A stretch of 34,703 nucleotides of DNA, taken from contig JAHJRE010000127.1 of assembly GCA_018831055.1 (NCBI GenBank), positions 1 through 34,703 on the forward strand, written 5' to 3'. This DNA comes from Bacteroidota bacterium. GTDB lineage: Bacteria; Bacteroidota; Bacteroidia; Bacteroidales; B18-G4. Below are positions 19,095 through 34,703 of this stretch, piece after piece. The notes beneath the pieces are model-generated. The model was not told the DNA's origin, made no database searches, and saw nothing but the letters and a program-made list of their open reading frames with translations. Position 1 is the first letter of the stretch, and each line of letters opens with the position of its first letter. A program made the translations under genes and the position numbers.

Positions 19095-19127
19095 ATTGTT
19101 CATTGATCATTATTCATTGTTCATTGG
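19095..19127 (+). repeat. Short period-7 array (ATTGTTC-type)
   Basis: Four consecutive heptamers ATTGTTC, ATTGATC, ATTATTC, ATTGTTC and a partial ATTGG lie in the gap between the tRNA and the AbiC-like gene. Just upstream is a GC-rich, partly self-complementary stretch (CCCCTCGGCTTCGCTCGGGG, 19068-19087). The unit differs from the other heptamer arrays in the window, but the period is the same. The rest of the 217-bp gap (19012-19228) shows nothing else recognisable. Confidence 0.7.
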
Positions 19128-21017: not shown

Positions 21018-21178
21018 ATGAATATCGGGAAACATTAACAAAAAGTTACAGGTTACAGGTTACAGGTTACAACTCATCACTCAGAACCCACACTCAAACT
21101 ACCTGAAGCCTGAAACCTGTATCCTGCAACCGAAAGTATGGAGCATGTAACTTGACATTTATCATTTCTGACATTTAT
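21018..21178. repeat. Heptad hairpin element, copy 1 (161 bp)
   Basis: The ends are imperfect inverted repeats: 21018-21052 opens ATGAATATCGGG, and the complement of 21144-21178 matches it at 23 of 35 positions. The interior runs in strict 7-nt phase from 21045: GTTACAG three times and GTTACAA, then CTCATCA, CTCAGAA, CCCACAC, TCAAACT, then ACCTGAA, GCCTGAA, ACCTGTA, TCCTGCA. The right-hand units are near-complements of the left-hand ones, so the whole can fold into a long imperfect hairpin. An 11-bp direct repeat TTAAGTTTTAT flanks it (21009-21019 and 21180-21190). It lies between the kinase stop and the barrel-gene start, both on the minus strand. Confidence 0.85.
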
Positions 21179-21194: not shown

Positions 21195-24100
21195 TTATTC
21201 TTTATGCAATAAATGATAAATCGAATCAAGAAGTTGCTTTTCGTCTATGGGTTTTGGGATATAATCATCACAACCATCATTCAGGAACTTTTCTTTTTCT
21301 TCCTGGCGGGCGAAGGCGGTAACAGCAATTACCGGCAAAGAAGGCCTGAATTCCTTGATTAGTCTTGTGGCAGTGAGTCCATCCATTTCCGGCATGCTTA
21401 TATCCATAAGAACCAGACTGATTTTTTCATTGGCCTTGCATTTTTCAACAGCCTCCGATCCGTTTTTAACCCAAAGCACCTTGGCAGCAGTGATCTCTAG
21501 CAGTTCTTTCACAAGTTCAAAATTGGATGCTACATCTTCTGCAACAAGTATTGTGAAATTCTTCAGATCTTGTCGTGTTCTCTTTTTTAGTAACTGTGGT
21601 TTTTCATCAATGGTTATGTTTTCAACAGGATGGAAAGGCAGGTTGAAATAGAACGTTGTGCCTTTTCCTACGGCGGAATCCAGCCATATCTCTCCCCCCA
21701 GCATGTTAACCAAAGTTCTGGAAATTGAAAGACCCAACCCGGTCCCCCCGTATTTTCGTGTATATGTTTCTTCAGCCTGTCTGAAGCGATCGAATATCAC
21801 GTTCTGTTTATCTGCCGGAATTCCAATACCACTGTCTTTTACATAAAACTCGATCTTTTTATCCCTGATCACATAACCCACTTCGATAAATCCTTTTTCA
21901 ACAAATTTAATAGCATTGGAAAGAAGATTGGAAAGTATTTGCCTGACCCTGTAGGGATCTGTTCTCATTGTAAGGCTTTGATCCTCAATATGCTTCTTTG
22001 TGATTATTTCTACGTCCTTCTTCAGTTTTTTCAGCTCCTGAACATACGAAATCACCAATTCATCGATAACCTTGTTGACATGGAAATTCTCTTCTTCAAT
22101 TTTGATCTCACCCACCTCAAGCCTTGCTGTGTCAATTATATCATCAATGATCTTAAGCAGAGAAGTGGTATTATTACGAATCACCTCAATATATTCGCTT
22201 TTTCTTTCCTGGGGAAGGTCGGGTTTCAGCAAAAGATTGGAAAATCCGATTATGGCATTCATTGGAGTTCGAATTTCATGCGACATATTGGTAAGAAATG
22301 CCGTTTTTAGACGATCCGATTCCTCCGCTCTTTCCTTGGCCCTTCTAAGCTTATCTTCGGATGATTTACGTTCAATGATAATCCCGATCTGATCAGCAAT
22401 GAATTCAAGCACTTTAATATCATTTTTATTAAATGCATTCTCATTTTCATAGTTCTGTACTACGAAAGCGCCAATAATCTCACCTTCAGAATGTAATGGA
22501 ATTCCCAGCCATACCTTGCATAACGTCCCATTCTGAGTAATTTCGCCACTGTTGATCATTTGGAGGATGTCATCATGTTTCAGCAAAACCATCTGCTTTT
22601 TATGAATGACCATTGAAGTGAGGGTTTTGCCATCCGGGAATTTTTCAAACTGATCTTTCTCATCCACAAAATACGGCAGAGAAAGGCTATCGCTTTCCCT
22701 ATCATATAAGGCAATGAAAAAATTCTTCAATTCGAGGATTTTGGAAACCTCGGTTTTGACTACCTGGATCAGATCCTTCAGCGACAAGGCAGTGCTGGCG
22801 GCCCTGGCAATCCGGTATAACACCCTCTGTACATTTTCAGCCTGCTTTCGTTCAAAAATCTCATCTTCCAGATTTTTGGTCCTTTCCTTTACCCTTTCTT
22901 CCAGTTCATTATTAAGGCGTCGCAAATCCTGATTGATTTTGTTGATCTGGATATTCTTTTCGGTCAGCATTTTGGCTGTATTCTTCCTTGTCTTATACCT
23001 GTTGAAAAACAGGATGATCAGGATGATCGTCAGTATGAGAATCACACTGAACAGATATCTTATGTTGCGTTCCCGGCTAAGCTTCAGGTTTTGAATACTA
23101 TTGTTCTTACGAAGCAGTTCATTTTCCCTTTCTTTATCTTCCGTTTCATATTTTATCCTGAGTTCTGCCAGTTTATTCTGACTTTGTTCTGATATCAGGC
23201 TGTCTTTTACAACGGAATAAGCTTTGAAATAATCAAGCGCTTTAGAAAAATCCTTTCCATTCTGAAACATTTCGTACAGCGCAAAGTACCCATTGCGTAG
23301 CAGTGTTTTCGCTTGAATCCGGTCGGATAAAAGCACTCCATCCTGTAAATAAATCTGGGCACTGTCATACTGTTTTATTTCCAGGAAAACATTGCCCATG
23401 TTAAGAAGTGTATTGGCGAACTCATAGGCATTTTCAGCTTCATTACTGCTTTTCAGCGACTTCCTGTAATAATCCAGGGCGGTTTGGTATTCACCCATAG
23501 CCTGGTAAATTGAACCCACATTATTATATGCCCCTGCAAGCCTCCACGATTGTCCTATCTCCAGTCTTATCTTCAGGGCTTCAAGAAAATATATCAGAGC
23601 TGTATCCAGTTTGTTCAGGCGGTTGTATATGATCCCGATGTTATTTAACGAGCCGGCGATACCAATCTTGTTTCCGATACGCTGCCGAATTTCCAGGGCT
23701 TTTAACTGATGCTCAAGGGCTTTTTCGTAATTCCCCTGAACCCCGTAAATGATACCTATATTATTAATAGTGTTGTGATTGTCTTCATCACTATAATTCA
23801 TCGATTCCATATAGTTCGACAAAGCTTTACCCAGATCTCCAAGTTTCCAGTATATAAGTCCGAGCGTATTATAAGATTCAGAGATCTTCAGGCTATCCTG
23901 AAGCTGAAGGTTAAGATTAAGTGCTTGTCTGCCATATTCCAATGCATAATAATACTCGCTTATTTTATAATAAACGATAGCCAGAGAGCTGAGCGCAACT
24001 GCAGTCTTAGCCTGGCTGTTTAAATCCTGGAATATCTCAAGAGCTTGCTCATAATTCCTGATGGCCATTTCATGATTGTTCAGGATATTATGGGCATTTC

Positions 24101-24350
24101 CAATGTTTTCCAGTGCACGGGCCTCCAACATTTTATCTTTAAGGCTGCTTGCCAGATCGAAAGCTTCCTCCGCATATACCAGGGCGTTATCGCCTGAGGT
24201 ATTGATATAGGCTTCGGATATGGAAAGGAGGAGTTCCACCTTGTCGGTTCCCCGGGTAGTTTCCAGCCTTGCTAACAGACTATCAACATTAACCGAATAA
24301 ACCGGGAATGCCGCAAAGAAAAAAAACAGAAAGAGGATTCTATTTAACAT
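21195..24350 (-). CDS. TPR-GAF hybrid histidine kinase
   Basis: A 1051-aa membrane sensor kinase. A signal-like N terminus (MLNRILFLFFFFAAFPVYS) precedes an exported region of about eight tetratricopeptide repeats (about 30-390; for example ALEYGRQALNLNLQLQDS and ALEHQLKALEIRQRIGN). After a charged helix comes one membrane helix (about 432-452), a coiled coil, a GAF domain (about 505-650), and a HisKA dimerisation domain with H691 in TNMSHEIRTPMNAIIG. An HATPase domain with DSGIGIPADKQ and GGTGLGLSISRTLV follows, then a receiver domain with D983 in VLMDISMPEMDG. No DNA-binding output is present, so phosphate must pass to an unlinked regulator. The second hybrid kinase lies 26 bp away upstream on the same strand, so the two may be co-transcribed. 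Confidence 0.95.
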   Translation of the reverse strand: MLNRILFLFFFFAAFPVYSVNVDSLLARLETTRGTDKVELLLSISEAYINTSGDNALVYAEEAFDLASSLKDKMLEARALENIGNAHNILNNHEMAIRNYEQALEIFQDLNSQAKTAVALSSLAIVYYKISEYYYALEYGRQALNLNLQLQDSLKISESYNTLGLIYWKLGDLGKALSNYMESMNYSDEDNHNTINNIGIIYGVQGNYEKALEHQLKALEIRQRIGNKIGIAGSLNNIGIIYNRLNKLDTALIYFLEALKIRLEIGQSWRLAGAYNNVGSIYQAMGEYQTALDYYRKSLKSSNEAENAYEFANTLLNMGNVFLEIKQYDSAQIYLQDGVLLSDRIQAKTLLRNGYFALYEMFQNGKDFSKALDYFKAYSVVKDSLISEQSQNKLAELRIKYETEDKERENELLRKNNSIQNLKLSRERNIRYLFSVILILTIILIILFFNRYKTRKNTAKMLTEKNIQINKINQDLRRLNNELEERVKERTKNLEDEIFERKQAENVQRVLYRIARAASTALSLKDLIQVVKTEVSKILELKNFFIALYDRESDSLSLPYFVDEKDQFEKFPDGKTLTSMVIHKKQMVLLKHDDILQMINSGEITQNGTLCKVWLGIPLHSEGEIIGAFVVQNYENENAFNKNDIKVLEFIADQIGIIIERKSSEDKLRRAKERAEESDRLKTAFLTNMSHEIRTPMNAIIGFSNLLLKPDLPQERKSEYIEVIRNNTTSLLKIIDDIIDTARLEVGEIKIEEENFHVNKVIDELVISYVQELKKLKKDVEIITKKHIEDQSLTMRTDPYRVRQILSNLLSNAIKFVEKGFIEVGYVIRDKKIEFYVKDSGIGIPADKQNVIFDRFRQAEETYTRKYGGTGLGLSISRTLVNMLGGEIWLDSAVGKGTTFYFNLPFHPVENITIDEKPQLLKKRTRQDLKNFTILVAEDVASNFELVKELLEITAAKVLWVKNGSEAVEKCKANEKISLVLMDISMPEMDGLTATRLIKEFRPSLPVIAVTAFARQEEKEKFLNDGCDDYIPKPIDEKQLLDSIYHLLHKE

Positions 24351-27569: not shown

Positions 27570-29660
27570 ATGATGAAATCATTACGTTTATTTTTGGGAG
27601 TAATCGGTGCAGTTATAATACTGGCCGGCTGTAATCAGCAAAGTACAGTTGATCAACCCGTTATTGGCAAACAGGAACTCAATCTCAGCAGCGATCTTAT
27701 GACCCCGGAGGTATTATGGGCTTTTGGGAGAATAGGTGAAGTCAGCGTTTCACCGGAAGGGAACAAAGTTCTTTTCAGTGTTGGCTATTATGATATTCCA
27801 ATAAACAAAGGCAATCGCGATCTCTACATGATGAACACAGATGGAAGCGATCTTCAGCAAATAACCAGAACCCCTTTTAGCGAATTTAATGCAGTATGGA
27901 AGCCGGATGGTAAAAAAATTGGATTCCTATCTGCTGAAAGCGGATCGGTACAATTATGGGAGATGTCGCCCGACGGCACCAACAAAGTAATGATCAGCAA
28001 TATTGATAACGGTATAGGTGGATTCAAATATTCTCCCGACATGACCATGATAGCCTTCATCAAGGAGGTGATTATTGAGAATCCCTATGCCAAACTTTAT
28101 GAAGGTCTGCCCAAGACCTCCGGGCGTATAGCAAATGATCTGATGTACAGACACTGGGATCACTGGGTGGATGCAGTTAGCCATTTATTTATGGCTGACT
28201 ACGATGGAAAATCCCTGAGCAATGTCAAGGATATTATGGAAGGAGAACCCTATGAGTCCCCATTGAGTCCATTTGGAGGCATGGAGCAGATTTCCTGGAG
28301 CCCCGACAGTAAAATACTGGCTTACACATGTAAAAAATTGAAAGGCCTGGAGTATAGCAAATCCACCAACTCGGATATATATTTTTACGACATTGCTACA
28401 GGAAAAACGGCCAATATGACCGAAGGAATGATGGGCTTTGATATAGGGCCTGTTTTTTCACCCGACGGTAAAAAAATGGCATGGGAAAGTATGGAACGCG
28501 ATGGATATGAATCCGATAAAAACAGGCTGTTTGTTTTGAATCTTGAAACCGGCGTTAAAACTGATTATACCAAAGACTTGGATCAGAATGCCCATGGACC
28601 TGCATGGTCGGCCGACGGGCAGACGATTTTCTTTATCAGTCCGTGGCACGGGACAGAGGACATATACGAGCTTTACCTTCCCAGCGGCCACATCCGGAAG
28701 ATTACGGAAGGCATACACAACTATCTGAGTGTCGAACCCGCTGGCGATAAGCTGATTGCTTCCCGTCAATCAATGTCCATGACAACCGAAATTTTTTCAG
28801 TAAATCCCATTGATGGAGCCGACACACAGATATCCTTTGTCAATCAGGACATTCTTAATCAGCTTACTATGGGAAATATTGAGGAACGATGGATCAAAAC
28901 CACTGATGATAAGGAAATGCTTACATGGATTATCTATCCTCCGCATTTTGATCCTGCTAAGACCTATCCGGCTTTATTGTATTGCCAGGGAGGCCCCCAA
29001 AGTATGGTCAGCCAGTTTTGGTCGTACCGATGGAATTTCCAGATGATGGCTGCCAACGGCTATATTATTGTCGCACCCAATCGCAGAGGATTGCCTGGCT
29101 TCGGTCAGGAATGGCTGGAGCAGATCTCGGGTGATTATGGCGGACAAAATATGAAAGACTATTTTAGCGCCATCGATGCGCTGGCAAATGAACCATTTGT
29201 TGATGAAACCCGATTGGGTGCAGTTGGGGCAAGCTACGGAGGATTTTCTGTTTACTGGCTCGCCGGCAACCACGATAAGAGGTTTAAAGCATTTATTGCC
29301 CACGATGGAATGTTCAATTTCGAGGCCCAATACCTTGAAACGGAAGAAATGTGGTTTGCCGACTGGGACCTTGGCGGCGCATTCTGGGAATTCGACAATA
29401 AAATCGCTCAGAATTCCTATGCAAATTCACCGCATAAGTTCGTACACAAATGGGATACTCCCATCCTGGTCATCCATGGTGAAAGAGATTACAGAATTAC
29501 CTATACCCAGGGGATGAGTGCGTTCAACGCAGCCGTGCTCAGAGGTGTTCCTGCCGAATTCCTGTACTTTCCCGATGAAAACCATTGGGTATTATCGCCA
29601 CAAAATGGCATATTATGGCAGAGAACGTTTTTTAACTGGCTTGATCGGTGGTTGAAGTGA
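27570..29660 (+). CDS. S9-family (prolyl oligopeptidase/DPP-like) peptidase lipoprotein
   Basis: A 696-aa exported serine peptidase. The N terminus [21 protein letters not shown] has a lipobox (LAGC), so the enzyme is anchored in the envelope. Residues about 45-420 form a WD40-like/TolB-type beta-propeller ([41 protein letters not shown]). The C-terminal alpha/beta hydrolase carries S555 in GASYGGFS, D640 in HGERDYRIT and H672 in ENHWVL: a complete catalytic triad in the usual order. It probably trims di- or oligopeptides in the periplasm. The start may be either of two adjacent ATG codons. The stop is followed within 3 bp by a heptad repeat array (29663-29921), which replaces a normal terminator. 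Monocistronic by context. Confidence 0.95.
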
Positions 29661-29662
29661 AG

Positions 29663-29921
29663 CTGGGGACTGGGGACTGGGGACTGGGGACTGGGAACTG
29701 GGAACTGGGAACTGGGAACTGGGGACTGGGGACTGGGGACTGGGAACTGGGAACAAGTTGCAGGTTACAGGGGGCAGGGGGCAGAGTAAAGGGTGTGGAG
29801 TGTGAGGTACAGCCTGTAACTTGCACCCTGTAGCTTGTAACCTGTAGCTTGTCGCTTGTAGCTTGTCACTTGTCACTTGTCACTTGTCGCTTGTAGCTTG
29901 TCGCTTGTCGCTTGCACCTTG
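29663..29921. repeat. Convergent heptad array filling the gap between two genes
   Basis: Thirteen perfect units of CTGGGGA or CTGGGAA (29663-29753) occur in blocks of 4, 4, 3 and 2 by type. Five in-phase units follow: CAAGTTG, CAGGTTA, CAGGGGG twice, CAGAGTA. After a unique centre of about 20 bp come sixteen units in the opposite sense (29810-29921) of the form YMRCYTG, for example TAACCTG, TAGCTTG, TCGCTTG, TCACTTG. The inner left units complement some right units, so a partial hairpin is possible. The array starts 3 bp after the peptidase stop and ends 8 bp before the stop of the convergent gene. It appears open in several frames only because of its low complexity, and is not coding. Confidence 0.9.
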
Positions 29922-29929
29922 ATTTTCCC

Positions 29930-30784
29930 CTACTCGTTATAAACAATCTTATAGGCCATCACTCTTCCGTCGGCGAAGGTTGGAACGTAGAGGATACCCG
30001 TGGAGGGGGCAAAGAATATATCTGCGGCATTGACCAGTTTATCGGAGGTATTGAAGAGAATGATCTTTAGGTCAGGAGGTTGTATAAATTGAACCAAACC
30101 TCTCCAGTTTGAGATAATATAATTTCCATGCATATCAACATTTAATCCGTCGATGCTGCCTGTTCCCTCAAACGAGATTTTATGGTCTCCGGTTTTTGTA
30201 TCCACTTTAATAATACGGTCGGTACAACCGATATAAAGGACATTATCCTTGAGATAAAGGCCGTTTGGACTGACCAGTATTTCTCCTTCCATCCAATTTT
30301 CAATACTTTTACCATCGTAACGGTATATAACACCCGCCTGCATGTCAGAAATATACACATAACCTTGTGGATCGGTGGTGATATCATTCAGGAATTTTGC
30401 CCCTTCAACATCATGTATATGAAGGATTCTGCCCGTAGGAATATCGATCTCAATAAGACGCGTGATATCGGTAACGTACAAAACATTTCCGATTTTCCCC
30501 ATACCTTTGGGAGCATTTAAACCCTGAACCCACTGCAGATCAATCACTTTTCCATCAAGTCCAACCCTGGAAATGAAACCATTTTCATCTTCCACGGTAG
30601 GATTTCCATTGATGTTTGATACATACAGCACTTTGTTTTGATGATCATAAAAAACGGATTCCGGAATTTGGAATACTTTTTCCGACTCCCAAAGCTTGTC
30701 GGCCCTTACCTTGCCTGTATCCTGTGAAAAAACTACAGATGCAAGAATGAGGGCCGATATTAATGTGATGAATGACTTTCTCAT
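29930..30784 (-). CDS. Exported SMP-30/NHL-like beta-propeller protein
   Basis: A 284-aa exported protein. MRKSFITLISALILASVVFSQ is a clear signal peptide, and I chose its ATG at 30784 over a longer frame that puts ten residues before it. The mature part is a six-bladed propeller of the SMP-30/gluconolactonase-like type: FQIPESVFYDHQNKVLYVSN, LNAPKGMGKIGNVLYVTD, FLNDITTDPQGYVYISDM, VSPNGLYLKDNVLYIG, SIDGLNVDMHGNYIISN, VNAADIFFAPSTGILYVP. Relatives bind metals and hydrolyse lactones, but many members are of unknown function. It lies 54 bp downstream of the second DUF4097-type cluster. A TATTTTTG box in that gap (30802-30809) suggests a separate promoter. Function unproven. Confidence 0.78.
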   Translation of the reverse strand: MRKSFITLISALILASVVFSQDTGKVRADKLWESEKVFQIPESVFYDHQNKVLYVSNINGNPTVEDENGFISRVGLDGKVIDLQWVQGLNAPKGMGKIGNVLYVTDITRLIEIDIPTGRILHIHDVEGAKFLNDITTDPQGYVYISDMQAGVIYRYDGKSIENWMEGEILVSPNGLYLKDNVLYIGCTDRIIKVDTKTGDHKISFEGTGSIDGLNVDMHGNYIISNWRGLVQFIQPPDLKIILFNTSDKLVNAADIFFAPSTGILYVPTFADGRVMAYKIVYNE

Positions 30785-30801
30785 GACTGTAAATTTATTT
30801 T

Positions 30802-30809
30802 CAAAAATA
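30802..30809 (-). promoter_or_regulatory. Candidate -7 box for the beta-propeller gene
   Basis: On the minus strand this reads TATTTTTG, 18 bp before the ATG at 30784, inside the 54-bp gap after the DUF4097-like gene. The -33 region is not convincing. Confidence 0.38.
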
Positions 30810-30838
30810 GCCAAAAGAAATCAATCTTTTCAGAAAAT

Positions 30839-32345: not shown

Positions 32346-32520
32346 TTTAGTAGCAGGAAAAAATAACAAGTAGTTTCAGGTTACAGGTTACAGGTTACAG
32401 GTTACAAGTGACAGGATAACGATCCATATTCAACTGTCGGTTAACTGCAACCTGAAACATGCAGCCTGTAACCTGTAACATGGATCGTGTAACTCGACAT
32501 TTTTCCTTCCTGGTATTCAT
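32346..32520. repeat. Heptad hairpin element, copy 2 (175 bp)
   Basis: Interior units run in 7-nt phase from 32373: GTTTCAG, GTTACAG three times, GTTACAA, GTGACAG, then a centre. On the right are AACTGCA, ACCTGAA, ACATGCA, GCCTGTA, ACCTGTA, ACATGGA and TCGTGTA. The outer left 35 bp match copy 3 at 24 of 35 positions, and the right end (GTAACTCGACATTTTT to TGGTATTCAT) matches the right ends of the other copies. An internal perfect 9-bp inverted pair ACGATCCAT/ATGGATCGT strengthens the fold. No clear flanking direct repeat is left, so this may be the oldest copy. It lies between the anti-sigma stop and the DUF4097-like start on the minus strand. Confidence 0.8.
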
Positions 32521-32550: not shown

Positions 32551-33366
32551 TCAGATAATGGTTCTAAGACCTTTCATAGCCTGGCTTTTAACCACATCTG
32601 CATTTTCCGGTGATTCAATGATTCTGTTCAAAGGGTCAACGGCTCTTTCATCACCGGTTTCGGAAATAAGCTGTATCAAAGTGATCTGCATCAGCGGATC
32701 CCTTTCAATATTCAAAGCGTTGATCAGGGCGTCTTTCACGAAACTATATCCGGTATATTTCGACAGAGCCGTAGCAGCTGCCATTCTCACATTCACATTA
32801 CCATCGCGGTTCATAGTGTTGATCAGGGCCATGATCATTTCTTCCCCGGGTTCCTCCTGGTCACGAATATAACTTACAGCCTGGATTCGCTGACTTGCAC
32901 TGGATTCTTCCAATTTCGAAATCATCAGGATATGTTTCATAATATCTATTTCATTCCTGAGCATTTCCATTTCACGATGGCTGGAACGCGGGCCTGGGTT
33001 GAGGATAAAACCCATCAGGAAACCGGTTATCAGGATCAGGAAACCGGCTGCAATCCTTCCCGATGGAGAAGTTATCCATTGCACTATTCCTGGAAAGCTA
33101 TATCTCTTTCCTGCACTATCACCAGCCAGTCTTTCTTTTTCAGCGGAAAGACTATCCAGAAAGCGTTTTCTCAGCTGGTCGGAGGGCGTGGCCAAAGGCA
33201 ACTGTTGCAAATCAATCAACAGATCTTTCATCTGTTCATATTCTCTGTGACATCCAGGGCAAGCCGACAGATGCCTGCGTACCTCCGTTACAATTTCCGG
33301 ATCCAGGATACCATCGATATAATCGATAAGCAGGGTTTTTACTTTTATGCAATCCATTGTGATCAT
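32551..33366 (-). CDS. Anti-sigma factor with zinc finger and HEAT repeats
   Basis: A 271-aa membrane protein. The N terminus carries a ZAS-type zinc motif, H32-x3-C36-x2-C39 in RRHLSACPGCHREY, the usual sigma-binding anti-sigma domain (zf-HC2). One membrane helix follows (about 106-128, RIAAGFLILITGFLMGFILN), then a periplasmic linker. The last about 100 residues form HEAT-like helical repeats (ALINTMNRDGNVNVRMAAATAL, DALINALNIERDPLMQITLIQL, AVDPLNRIIESPENADVVKS). The gene starts 2 bp after the sigma stop. MDCIK, three codons in, is an alternative start. Unlike the anti-sigma of the first cluster, this one has the zinc motif and a repeat domain that may contact the exported DUF4097-like proteins; that contact is inference. 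Confidence 0.85.
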   Translation of the reverse strand: MITMDCIKVKTLLIDYIDGILDPEIVTEVRRHLSACPGCHREYEQMKDLLIDLQQLPLATPSDQLRKRFLDSLSAEKERLAGDSAGKRYSFPGIVQWITSPSGRIAAGFLILITGFLMGFILNPGPRSSHREMEMLRNEIDIMKHILMISKLEESSASQRIQAVSYIRDQEEPGEEMIMALINTMNRDGNVNVRMAAATALSKYTGYSFVKDALINALNIERDPLMQITLIQLISETGDERAVDPLNRIIESPENADVVKSQAMKGLRTII

Positions 33367-33979: not shown

Positions 33980-34162
33980 ATGAGTATTGGGAAACATTAA
34001 CACAAAGTTACAGGCGACAGGTTGCAAGCGACAACTCATCACTCATCACCCACACCCACACTACCTGCACCCTGCACCCTGCAGCCTGTAACCTGCACCC
34101 TGCATCCTGCATCCTGCAACCATAGAGCAGGCAACTTGATATTAATCATACCCGATACTCAT
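33980..34162. repeat. Heptad hairpin element, copy 3 (183 bp)
   Basis: The ends are the best-preserved inverted repeats: left ATGAGTATTGGG (33980-33991), right CCCGATACTCAT (34151-34162), with 25 of 35 outer positions paired. The interior is in 7-nt phase from 34007: GTTACAG, GCGACAG, GTTGCAA, GCGACAA, then CTCATCA twice, CCCACAC, CCACACT. Eight units of the NCCTGYA type follow (34063-34118). Copy 1 has the same block order but only four right-hand units. A 9-bp direct repeat AAATTTTAT flanks it (33971-33979, 34164-34172). It occupies most of the 345-bp gap between the sigma and DoxX-like genes, which diverge. Confidence 0.87.
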
Positions 34163-34256: not shown

Positions 34257-34634
34257 ATGAAAACACTAAGCAATGTTTTAAGGTTTCTGCTGGCTATAAT
34301 ACTCCTGGTTTTCGGGTTGAACAAAGTATTTCATTTTCTTCCGATGGAAATGGGGTCAGGGCCAGGAGCCGATTTTTTTGGAGCCCTGATCGCCGCAGGA
34401 TATATGATACCCGTTATTGTAGCAGTCGAATTAATAGCGGCATTTTCGCTGATGCTAAACCGTTTTGTTTCTTTCACTATGGTTCTGCTTGCTCCAATAT
34501 CACTTAACATCCTGTTATATGGCATCTTTCTTGATTCCATGAGCCTTCCCATCGGTGGATTTACATTCCTTTTAAATTTATATTTCCTGGTCATAAACAG
34601 GAAGGTATATTGGGAGATGTTTAAGAAGGAATGA
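34257..34634 (+). CDS. DoxX-like small membrane protein
   Basis: A 125-aa protein with four hydrophobic helices (about 5-22, 40-64, 69-90, 95-113). It opens MKTLSNVLRFLLAIILLVFGLNKVFHF, and the G-x-N-K/R-F motif at the end of helix 1 is typical of DoxX/DoxD-like proteins. The basic tail NRKVYWEMFKKE is cytoplasmic. Members of this family are poorly understood, with roles suggested in redox or lipid-related processes. It is transcribed divergently from the second ECF sigma factor across the copy 3 element. A heptad-type array starts 11 bp after its stop and runs off the window edge. Confidence 0.78.
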   Translation: MKTLSNVLRFLLAIILLVFGLNKVFHFLPMEMGSGPGADFFGALIAAGYMIPVIVAVELIAAFSLMLNRFVSFTMVLLAPISLNILLYGIFLDSMSLPIGGFTFLLNLYFLVINRKVYWEMFKKE

Positions 34635-34645
34635 TGATGGGGGAA

Positions 34646-34703
34646 CTGGGGGCTGGGTGACTGGGAGCTGGGTGACTGGGAACTGGGGGCTGGGCGACTG
34701 GGG
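34646..34703 (+). repeat. CTGGG array with mixed 7- and 8-bp units, cut by window end
   Basis: Units follow as CTGGGGG, CTGGGTGA, CTGGGAG, CTGGGTGA, CTGGGAA, CTGGGGG, CTGGGCGA, CTGGGG. The 7-mers are the same type as at 29663-29753, and 8-mers are interspersed, giving in part a 15-bp higher-order period. Like the array at 29663, it begins close behind a plus-strand stop codon. Its right end lies outside the window. Confidence 0.85.

Follow-up and report, generated by a model that had tools for sequence, protein, structure and literature searches.

A heptanucleotide array between two convergent genes of a Bacteroidales genome is one of a population of period-7 arrays biased towards gene 3' ends

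The gap between two convergent genes, encoding an S9 family peptidase and an SMP-30/gluconolactonase-like protein, is filled by an array that is a member of the intergenic heptanucleotide arrays known from bacteria (LSSR/STRR type): its tandem units exceed chance, it is intergenic and its kind is dispersed over the genome. The window, that is, the whole stretch of DNA that was analyzed, is one contig of 34,703 nucleotides (C127) of a 4.19-Mb draft genome comprising 342 contigs and estimated to be 96% complete. We lean towards the view that the array grew by slippage in a transcribed 3' flank, as part of a genome-wide population of heptad arrays, and that it has at most an accessory role and is not a dedicated terminator.

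The unit make-up given in an earlier note on this DNA, 13 CTGGGRA heptads, five CARGKKR-like heptads, a centre and 16 YMRCYTG heptads (Table 1), was confirmed by the sequence and by TRF, which independently detected a period of 7 with 96% match at 29663-29751 and periods of 7, 14 and 21 at 29811-29921. The five units of the second block read, in order, CAAGTTG, CAGGTTA, CAGGGGG, CAGGGGG and CAGAGTA, and the YMRCYTG heptads become CARGYKR on the minus strand, which is the sense strand of the right-hand gene. The same note had placed the array 3 bp past one stop codon and 8 bp from the other; the latter distance is exact, the minus-strand stop beginning at 29930, and the former is close, the actual spacing being 2 bp. 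The left block contains 13 consecutive runs of at least three G and a G-quadruplex (G4) motif at 29665-29751, and it alone has at least four G-tracts, the array combining G4-type heptads with non-G4 ones. Within this block the sub-types follow the order of four GGGGA, four GGGAA, three GGGGA and two GGGAA units, which had been taken to suggest amplification of multi-unit segments. Segment amplification is only weakly supported, as a runs test, calculated by hand, is marginal with a P of ~0.04 (4 runs among 7 + 6 units, 73/1716). Five further heptad sites are present in the window, three of them 3' of genes and one in a divergent gap.

Table 1. Coordinates of the array, its flanking genes, further heptad sites in the window and arrays at S9 stops in other Bacteroidales.
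Feature	Position	Strand	Basis or remark
S9 (prolyl oligopeptidase family) peptidase gene	27570-29660	+	ORF; Pfam PF00326 (E 8.5e-55), PF07676 (PD40)
Stop codon of S9 peptidase gene	29658-29660	+	
Whole array	29663-29921		Gap between convergent genes, 29661-29929
CTGGGRA block, 13 heptads	29663-29753	+	Sequence, TRF; G-rich strand is sense strand of upstream gene
CARGKKR-like block, 5 in-phase heptads	29754-29788	+	Sequence; left arm of inverted repeat
Centre (loop region), 21 bp, non-repetitive	29789-29809	.	Sequence
YMRCYTG block, 16 heptads	29810-29921	+	Sequence, TRF
Inverted repeat I1, imperfect	Left arm 29753-29776, right arm 29822-29845	+	24 nt, 79% complementary
Alternative right arms of I1	29813-29831 (pairs 29753-29771), 29864-29887		
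SMP-30/gluconolactonase-like gene, convergent partner	29930-30814	-	ORF; Pfam PF08450 (E 3.7e-07)
Further heptad site	19095-19126		
GTTACAG heptads	21045-21071	-	3' side of minus-strand kinase gene 21195-24350
GTTACAG array and CTGTAAC-type array	32373-32415 and 32445-32493 (within 32373-32493)	-	TRF; 3' of minus-strand gene 32551-33366; inverted partner arm for the GTTACAG array
Further heptad site	34064-34118		Divergent gap
CTGGGAG/CTGGGTG-type array	34645-34687	+	TRF, ORFs; ~10 bp past stop of gene 34257-34634
S9-stop array in L010	4339-4391		CTGGATG
S9-stop array in L028	6104-6133		
S9-stop array in L073	6018-6049		
S9-stop array in L082	6065-6096		

The array survey covered 1.19 Mb of the genome (28%) in contigs chosen by number and not at random, with genes called by our own codon-scored ORF caller, and it found 92 arrays of period 7 compared with 1 to 10 arrays for each of the periods 4-6, 8-13 and 15-20, periods 14 and 21 being harmonics of 7. 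When the array sequence was used as the query, 49 matching places were found on many contigs of its own genome. Because a generic five-unit heptad pattern gives 514 genome hits versus 98 for its backward control, and because period 7 is unique among the periods, the array is far beyond chance. Of the arrays in the sample, 76 of 92 are located in gaps between called genes. Their unit families are many and unrelated, with dozens of unit sequences including AACCTGY, AGATCKC, AATACAG, ACCCATC, AAACCCT and ACTGGGG; the unit length is fixed while the unit sequence varies, which speaks against a single sequence-specific binding protein. Given the recurrence of CTGYAAC, the unit sequence is not wholly free: runs of three such units were found in 16 of the 295 genomes of the order, distributed over 13 genera, with a control near zero, and ACTGGGR occurs in 3 of the 295. 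The amplification of CTGYAAC is patchy over these genera, yet the unit is absent in a same-genus genome. This patchiness and the matches within the genome would fit a spread of arrays or unit families between sites or species through recombination, horizontal transfer or a mobile element, an explanation that we regard as very improbable: no mobile-element gene adjoins the array in the ORF list, the many unrelated heptads have only the 7-bp period in common, and in other species an unrelated heptad occupies the corresponding site at the S9 stop.

Heptad arrays also coincide with the ends of contigs, with 7 of 176 contig ends falling inside them versus ~0.7 expected after runs of period 1-3 were filtered out; examples from the same genome are L148, L160, L179 and L192. 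Arrays thus break contigs, and their true number and length are therefore underestimated. The same breakage could be read as a sign that the array is an artefact of assembling a short-read draft genome, but this is extremely improbable because the array lies well inside a 34.7-kb contig, where the genes on both sides of it are intact, its unit variants are ordered and non-identical, and similar arrays are found in independently assembled genomes.

The position of the arrays relative to genes is strongly biased. Per kb of intergenic DNA there are 2.80 arrays in convergent gaps, 0.79 in tandem gaps and 0.45 in divergent gaps, and the enrichment of convergent over other gaps has an odds ratio of 3.48 (p 1.3e-4) when stratified by gap length without arrays. 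A search for heptad arrays at other convergent 3' ends, which the earlier note had proposed as a check, therefore showed a genome-wide feature. Array starts lie within 8 nt of a stop codon in 25 cases versus 11.0 by permutation (25 was reached in 0 of 2000 permutations), and the same distance from a start codon is found in 1 case versus 5.1; in tandem gaps alone the number near a stop is 12 versus 4.2. The stop codon forms part of the first unit (TAGTTAA, TAGGTTACAG) in three arrays (L023 2187-2246, L234 1496-1540 and L239 1496-1526), which look as though copying of the unit had proceeded from the stop outward. The arrays have a strand polarity as well. On the sense strand, arrays up to 50 nt from a stop have G>C in a ratio of 34:8, those farther away are C-rich (12:4), and array-free gaps have the opposite G:C baseline of 129:182 (Fisher p 1.7e-6 versus the near-stop arrays). 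At nine CTGYAAC loci of other genomes, for which the context consisted of 3-kb loci, most near-stop arrays are likewise G-rich on the sense strand and farther ones C-rich.

An inverted-complement partner is found within 200 bp of 32 of the 76 intergenic arrays, while the reverse-only and complement-only controls both give 0 of 76. In the array itself, the RNA fold of the plus strand has a z of -2.55 relative to shuffles, and that of the minus strand has a z of -0.76, no better than shuffles. Because only the plus-strand fold beats its shuffles, modeling supports the putative bidirectional RNA hairpin in one direction only. An Rfam scan of the array gave no match above the gathering score, the only entry being MIR6462 with 19.9 bits versus a cutoff of 96. 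Inverted arms at convergent ends, together with the consecutive G-runs, could also indicate an element acting at the level of DNA, in which a cruciform or G4 DNA would absorb or mark supercoiling in a manner functionally like REP/BIME elements. Such an element is improbable, as tandem gaps are common sites too (41 of the 76 arrays) and the unrelated unit sequences argue against a single binding protein.

The earlier note had proposed that the array stands where a bidirectional terminator would be expected. Its observation that no terminator is otherwise visible was borne out, since no canonical site, defined as a GC-rich stem followed by a T tract, scored above threshold on either strand of the gap, and the array sequence has no T tract after the stem. 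Against the proposal, divergent gaps also contain some arrays. A genome-wide replacement of terminators by arrays was tested and not shown, because canonical terminators outside arrays are not significantly depleted at array-bearing 3' ends: they were found at 6 of 28 convergent 3' ends with arrays versus 18 of 56 without, and at 2 of 32 tandem 3' ends with arrays versus 39 of 231 without, neither difference being significant. Both differences lean toward fewer canonical terminators where arrays stand, and arrays may replace terminators in part. The proposed termination role thus retains the bias towards 3' ends and convergent gaps, the inverted arms and the lack of a canonical terminator in the gap, and loses ground with the terminators that are not significantly depleted and the minus-strand fold that is no better than shuffles. 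Because the terminator counts do not differ significantly and the RNA fold reaches significance for a single strand, the evidence falls short of a dedicated bidirectional terminator here; an effect of the array on the end of transcription is possible but unproven.

The same convergent gene pair is present in two genomes of the same genus, G001 and G002, with identities of 75% and 69% for the S9 peptidase and 60% and 52% for its partner, and in both, the aligned proteins end ~70 bp apart with no such array between them. The corresponding gap has no heptads in G001 and ~2.5 units of the unrelated heptad GGATACC in G002, and in the parts of these two genomes that were read period-7 arrays are rare, with 0 in 192 kb and 2 in 112 kb. 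Absence of the array from related genomes was one part of the outcome by which, according to the earlier note, a termination role would be refuted, and these two relatives keep the gene pair without it. In more distant Bacteroidales, an unrelated heptad array stands directly at or after the stop of the S9 orthologue in four cases (Table 1); the L010 contig terminates within its array.

These observations bear on the main alternative, a selected bidirectional 3'-end element in which an RNA hairpin, with a G4 on one side, would terminate transcription or shield both mRNAs from 3' exonucleases. It would account for the enrichment at convergent gaps and stop codons, the inverted arms, a gap devoid of a canonical terminator, the plus-strand fold and the different heptad arrays after the S9 stop in L010, L028, L073 and L082, and in Xanthomonas transcripts start or stop more often in G4-forming heptads than in controls (PMC4692102). 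We nevertheless consider it unlikely on balance, in view of the minus-strand fold, the missing T tract, the canonical terminators that are not significantly depleted at array-bearing ends and the same-genus relatives that have the convergent pair without the array. Rather more doubtful is a system free in sequence and fixed in length, in which hairpins whose arms may consist of any 7-bp unit, beginning with the G-rich arm, would serve as 3'-end or transcription-boundary elements between genes and be renewed continually by 7-bp amplification, so that a given 3' end would acquire unrelated arrays anew in different species.

In the slippage reading that we prefer, tandem duplication or slippage in 7-bp steps would cause arrays to grow, largely indifferent to unit sequence, and the arrays would persist chiefly downstream of genes, in 3' flanks that spare both coding sequence and promoter. 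Because they are located right past stop codons, the arrays are probably transcribed. Such a transcribed flank would have the G-rich arm first, often followed by the complementary C-rich arm, and may form a hairpin at the 3' end of the mRNA, with a G-quadruplex possible in addition at the CTGGGRA array; a side effect of the folded RNA may be a slower RNA polymerase or a protected 3' end. The strand polarity and inverted arms are not expected from plain neutral slippage and could come from a transcription-linked mutation bias, from template switching or from selection on 3'-end structure.

REP/BIME elements are inverted repeats in gene 3' flanks that have one conserved palindrome common to all copies. 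The arrays described here resemble them as inverted repeats in 3' flanks but have no shared conserved palindromic core, their units being unrelated and their arms consisting of tandem heptads. Closer parallels are the intergenic, G4-capable heptads GGGGA(C/T)T of Nostoc and GGGAATC of Xanthomonas described by Rehm et al. (2015), which are G-rich on the coding strand within 50 bp past stops, are often found as inverted convergent pairs in Xanthomonas, and lie mostly between aligned ORFs, with 16% in convergent gaps in Xanthomonas and 11% in Nostoc (PMC4692102). As in Nostoc the unit is G-rich and 7 bp long, GGGGACT being CTGGGGA in rotation, and the left block alone has a GGGGA(C/T)T unit and four or more G-tracts; intergenic arrays that are G-rich near stops are common to both genera and ours, and the inverted pairs are as in Xanthomonas. 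In contrast to those genera, where one unit type was studied, many unrelated heptads coexist here and convergent gaps are enriched. The TAACTGA heptamers of MacGregor (2015) are intergenic direct repeats that are patchy in Bacteroidetes, Cyanobacteria and Beggiatoaceae and missing from the corresponding gaps of close relatives (PMC4679880), as is the case for our array, although in Beggiatoaceae they stand mostly upstream of start codons whereas the arrays here are downstream of stops. Beyond that article we found no literature on heptads in Bacteroidetes, and an article on cyanobacterial termination (PMC13289151) makes no mention of repeats. As cited in PMC4692102 and PMC4679880, the long simple sequence repeats of Mrazek (2007) and the tandem heptanucleotides of Calothrix show an excess of heptamers as here, in other genomes; in many genomes heptamers outnumber all other long units, and polymerase slippage in 7-nt steps was proposed. 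With many unrelated heptads in one genome, the length of the unit can be told apart from its sequence, which points to a mechanism with 7-bp steps behind the preference of bacterial tandem repeats for exactly 7 bp. The polarity near stops and the inverted arms link the arrays to transcribed 3' flanks, and therefore both their origin and a role at 3' ends are testable. Our finding is thus a variation on the known intergenic heptanucleotide repeats of Nostoc, Xanthomonas and Beggiatoaceae, distinguished by the many different heptads that coexist in a single genome and by an enrichment at convergent gene ends.
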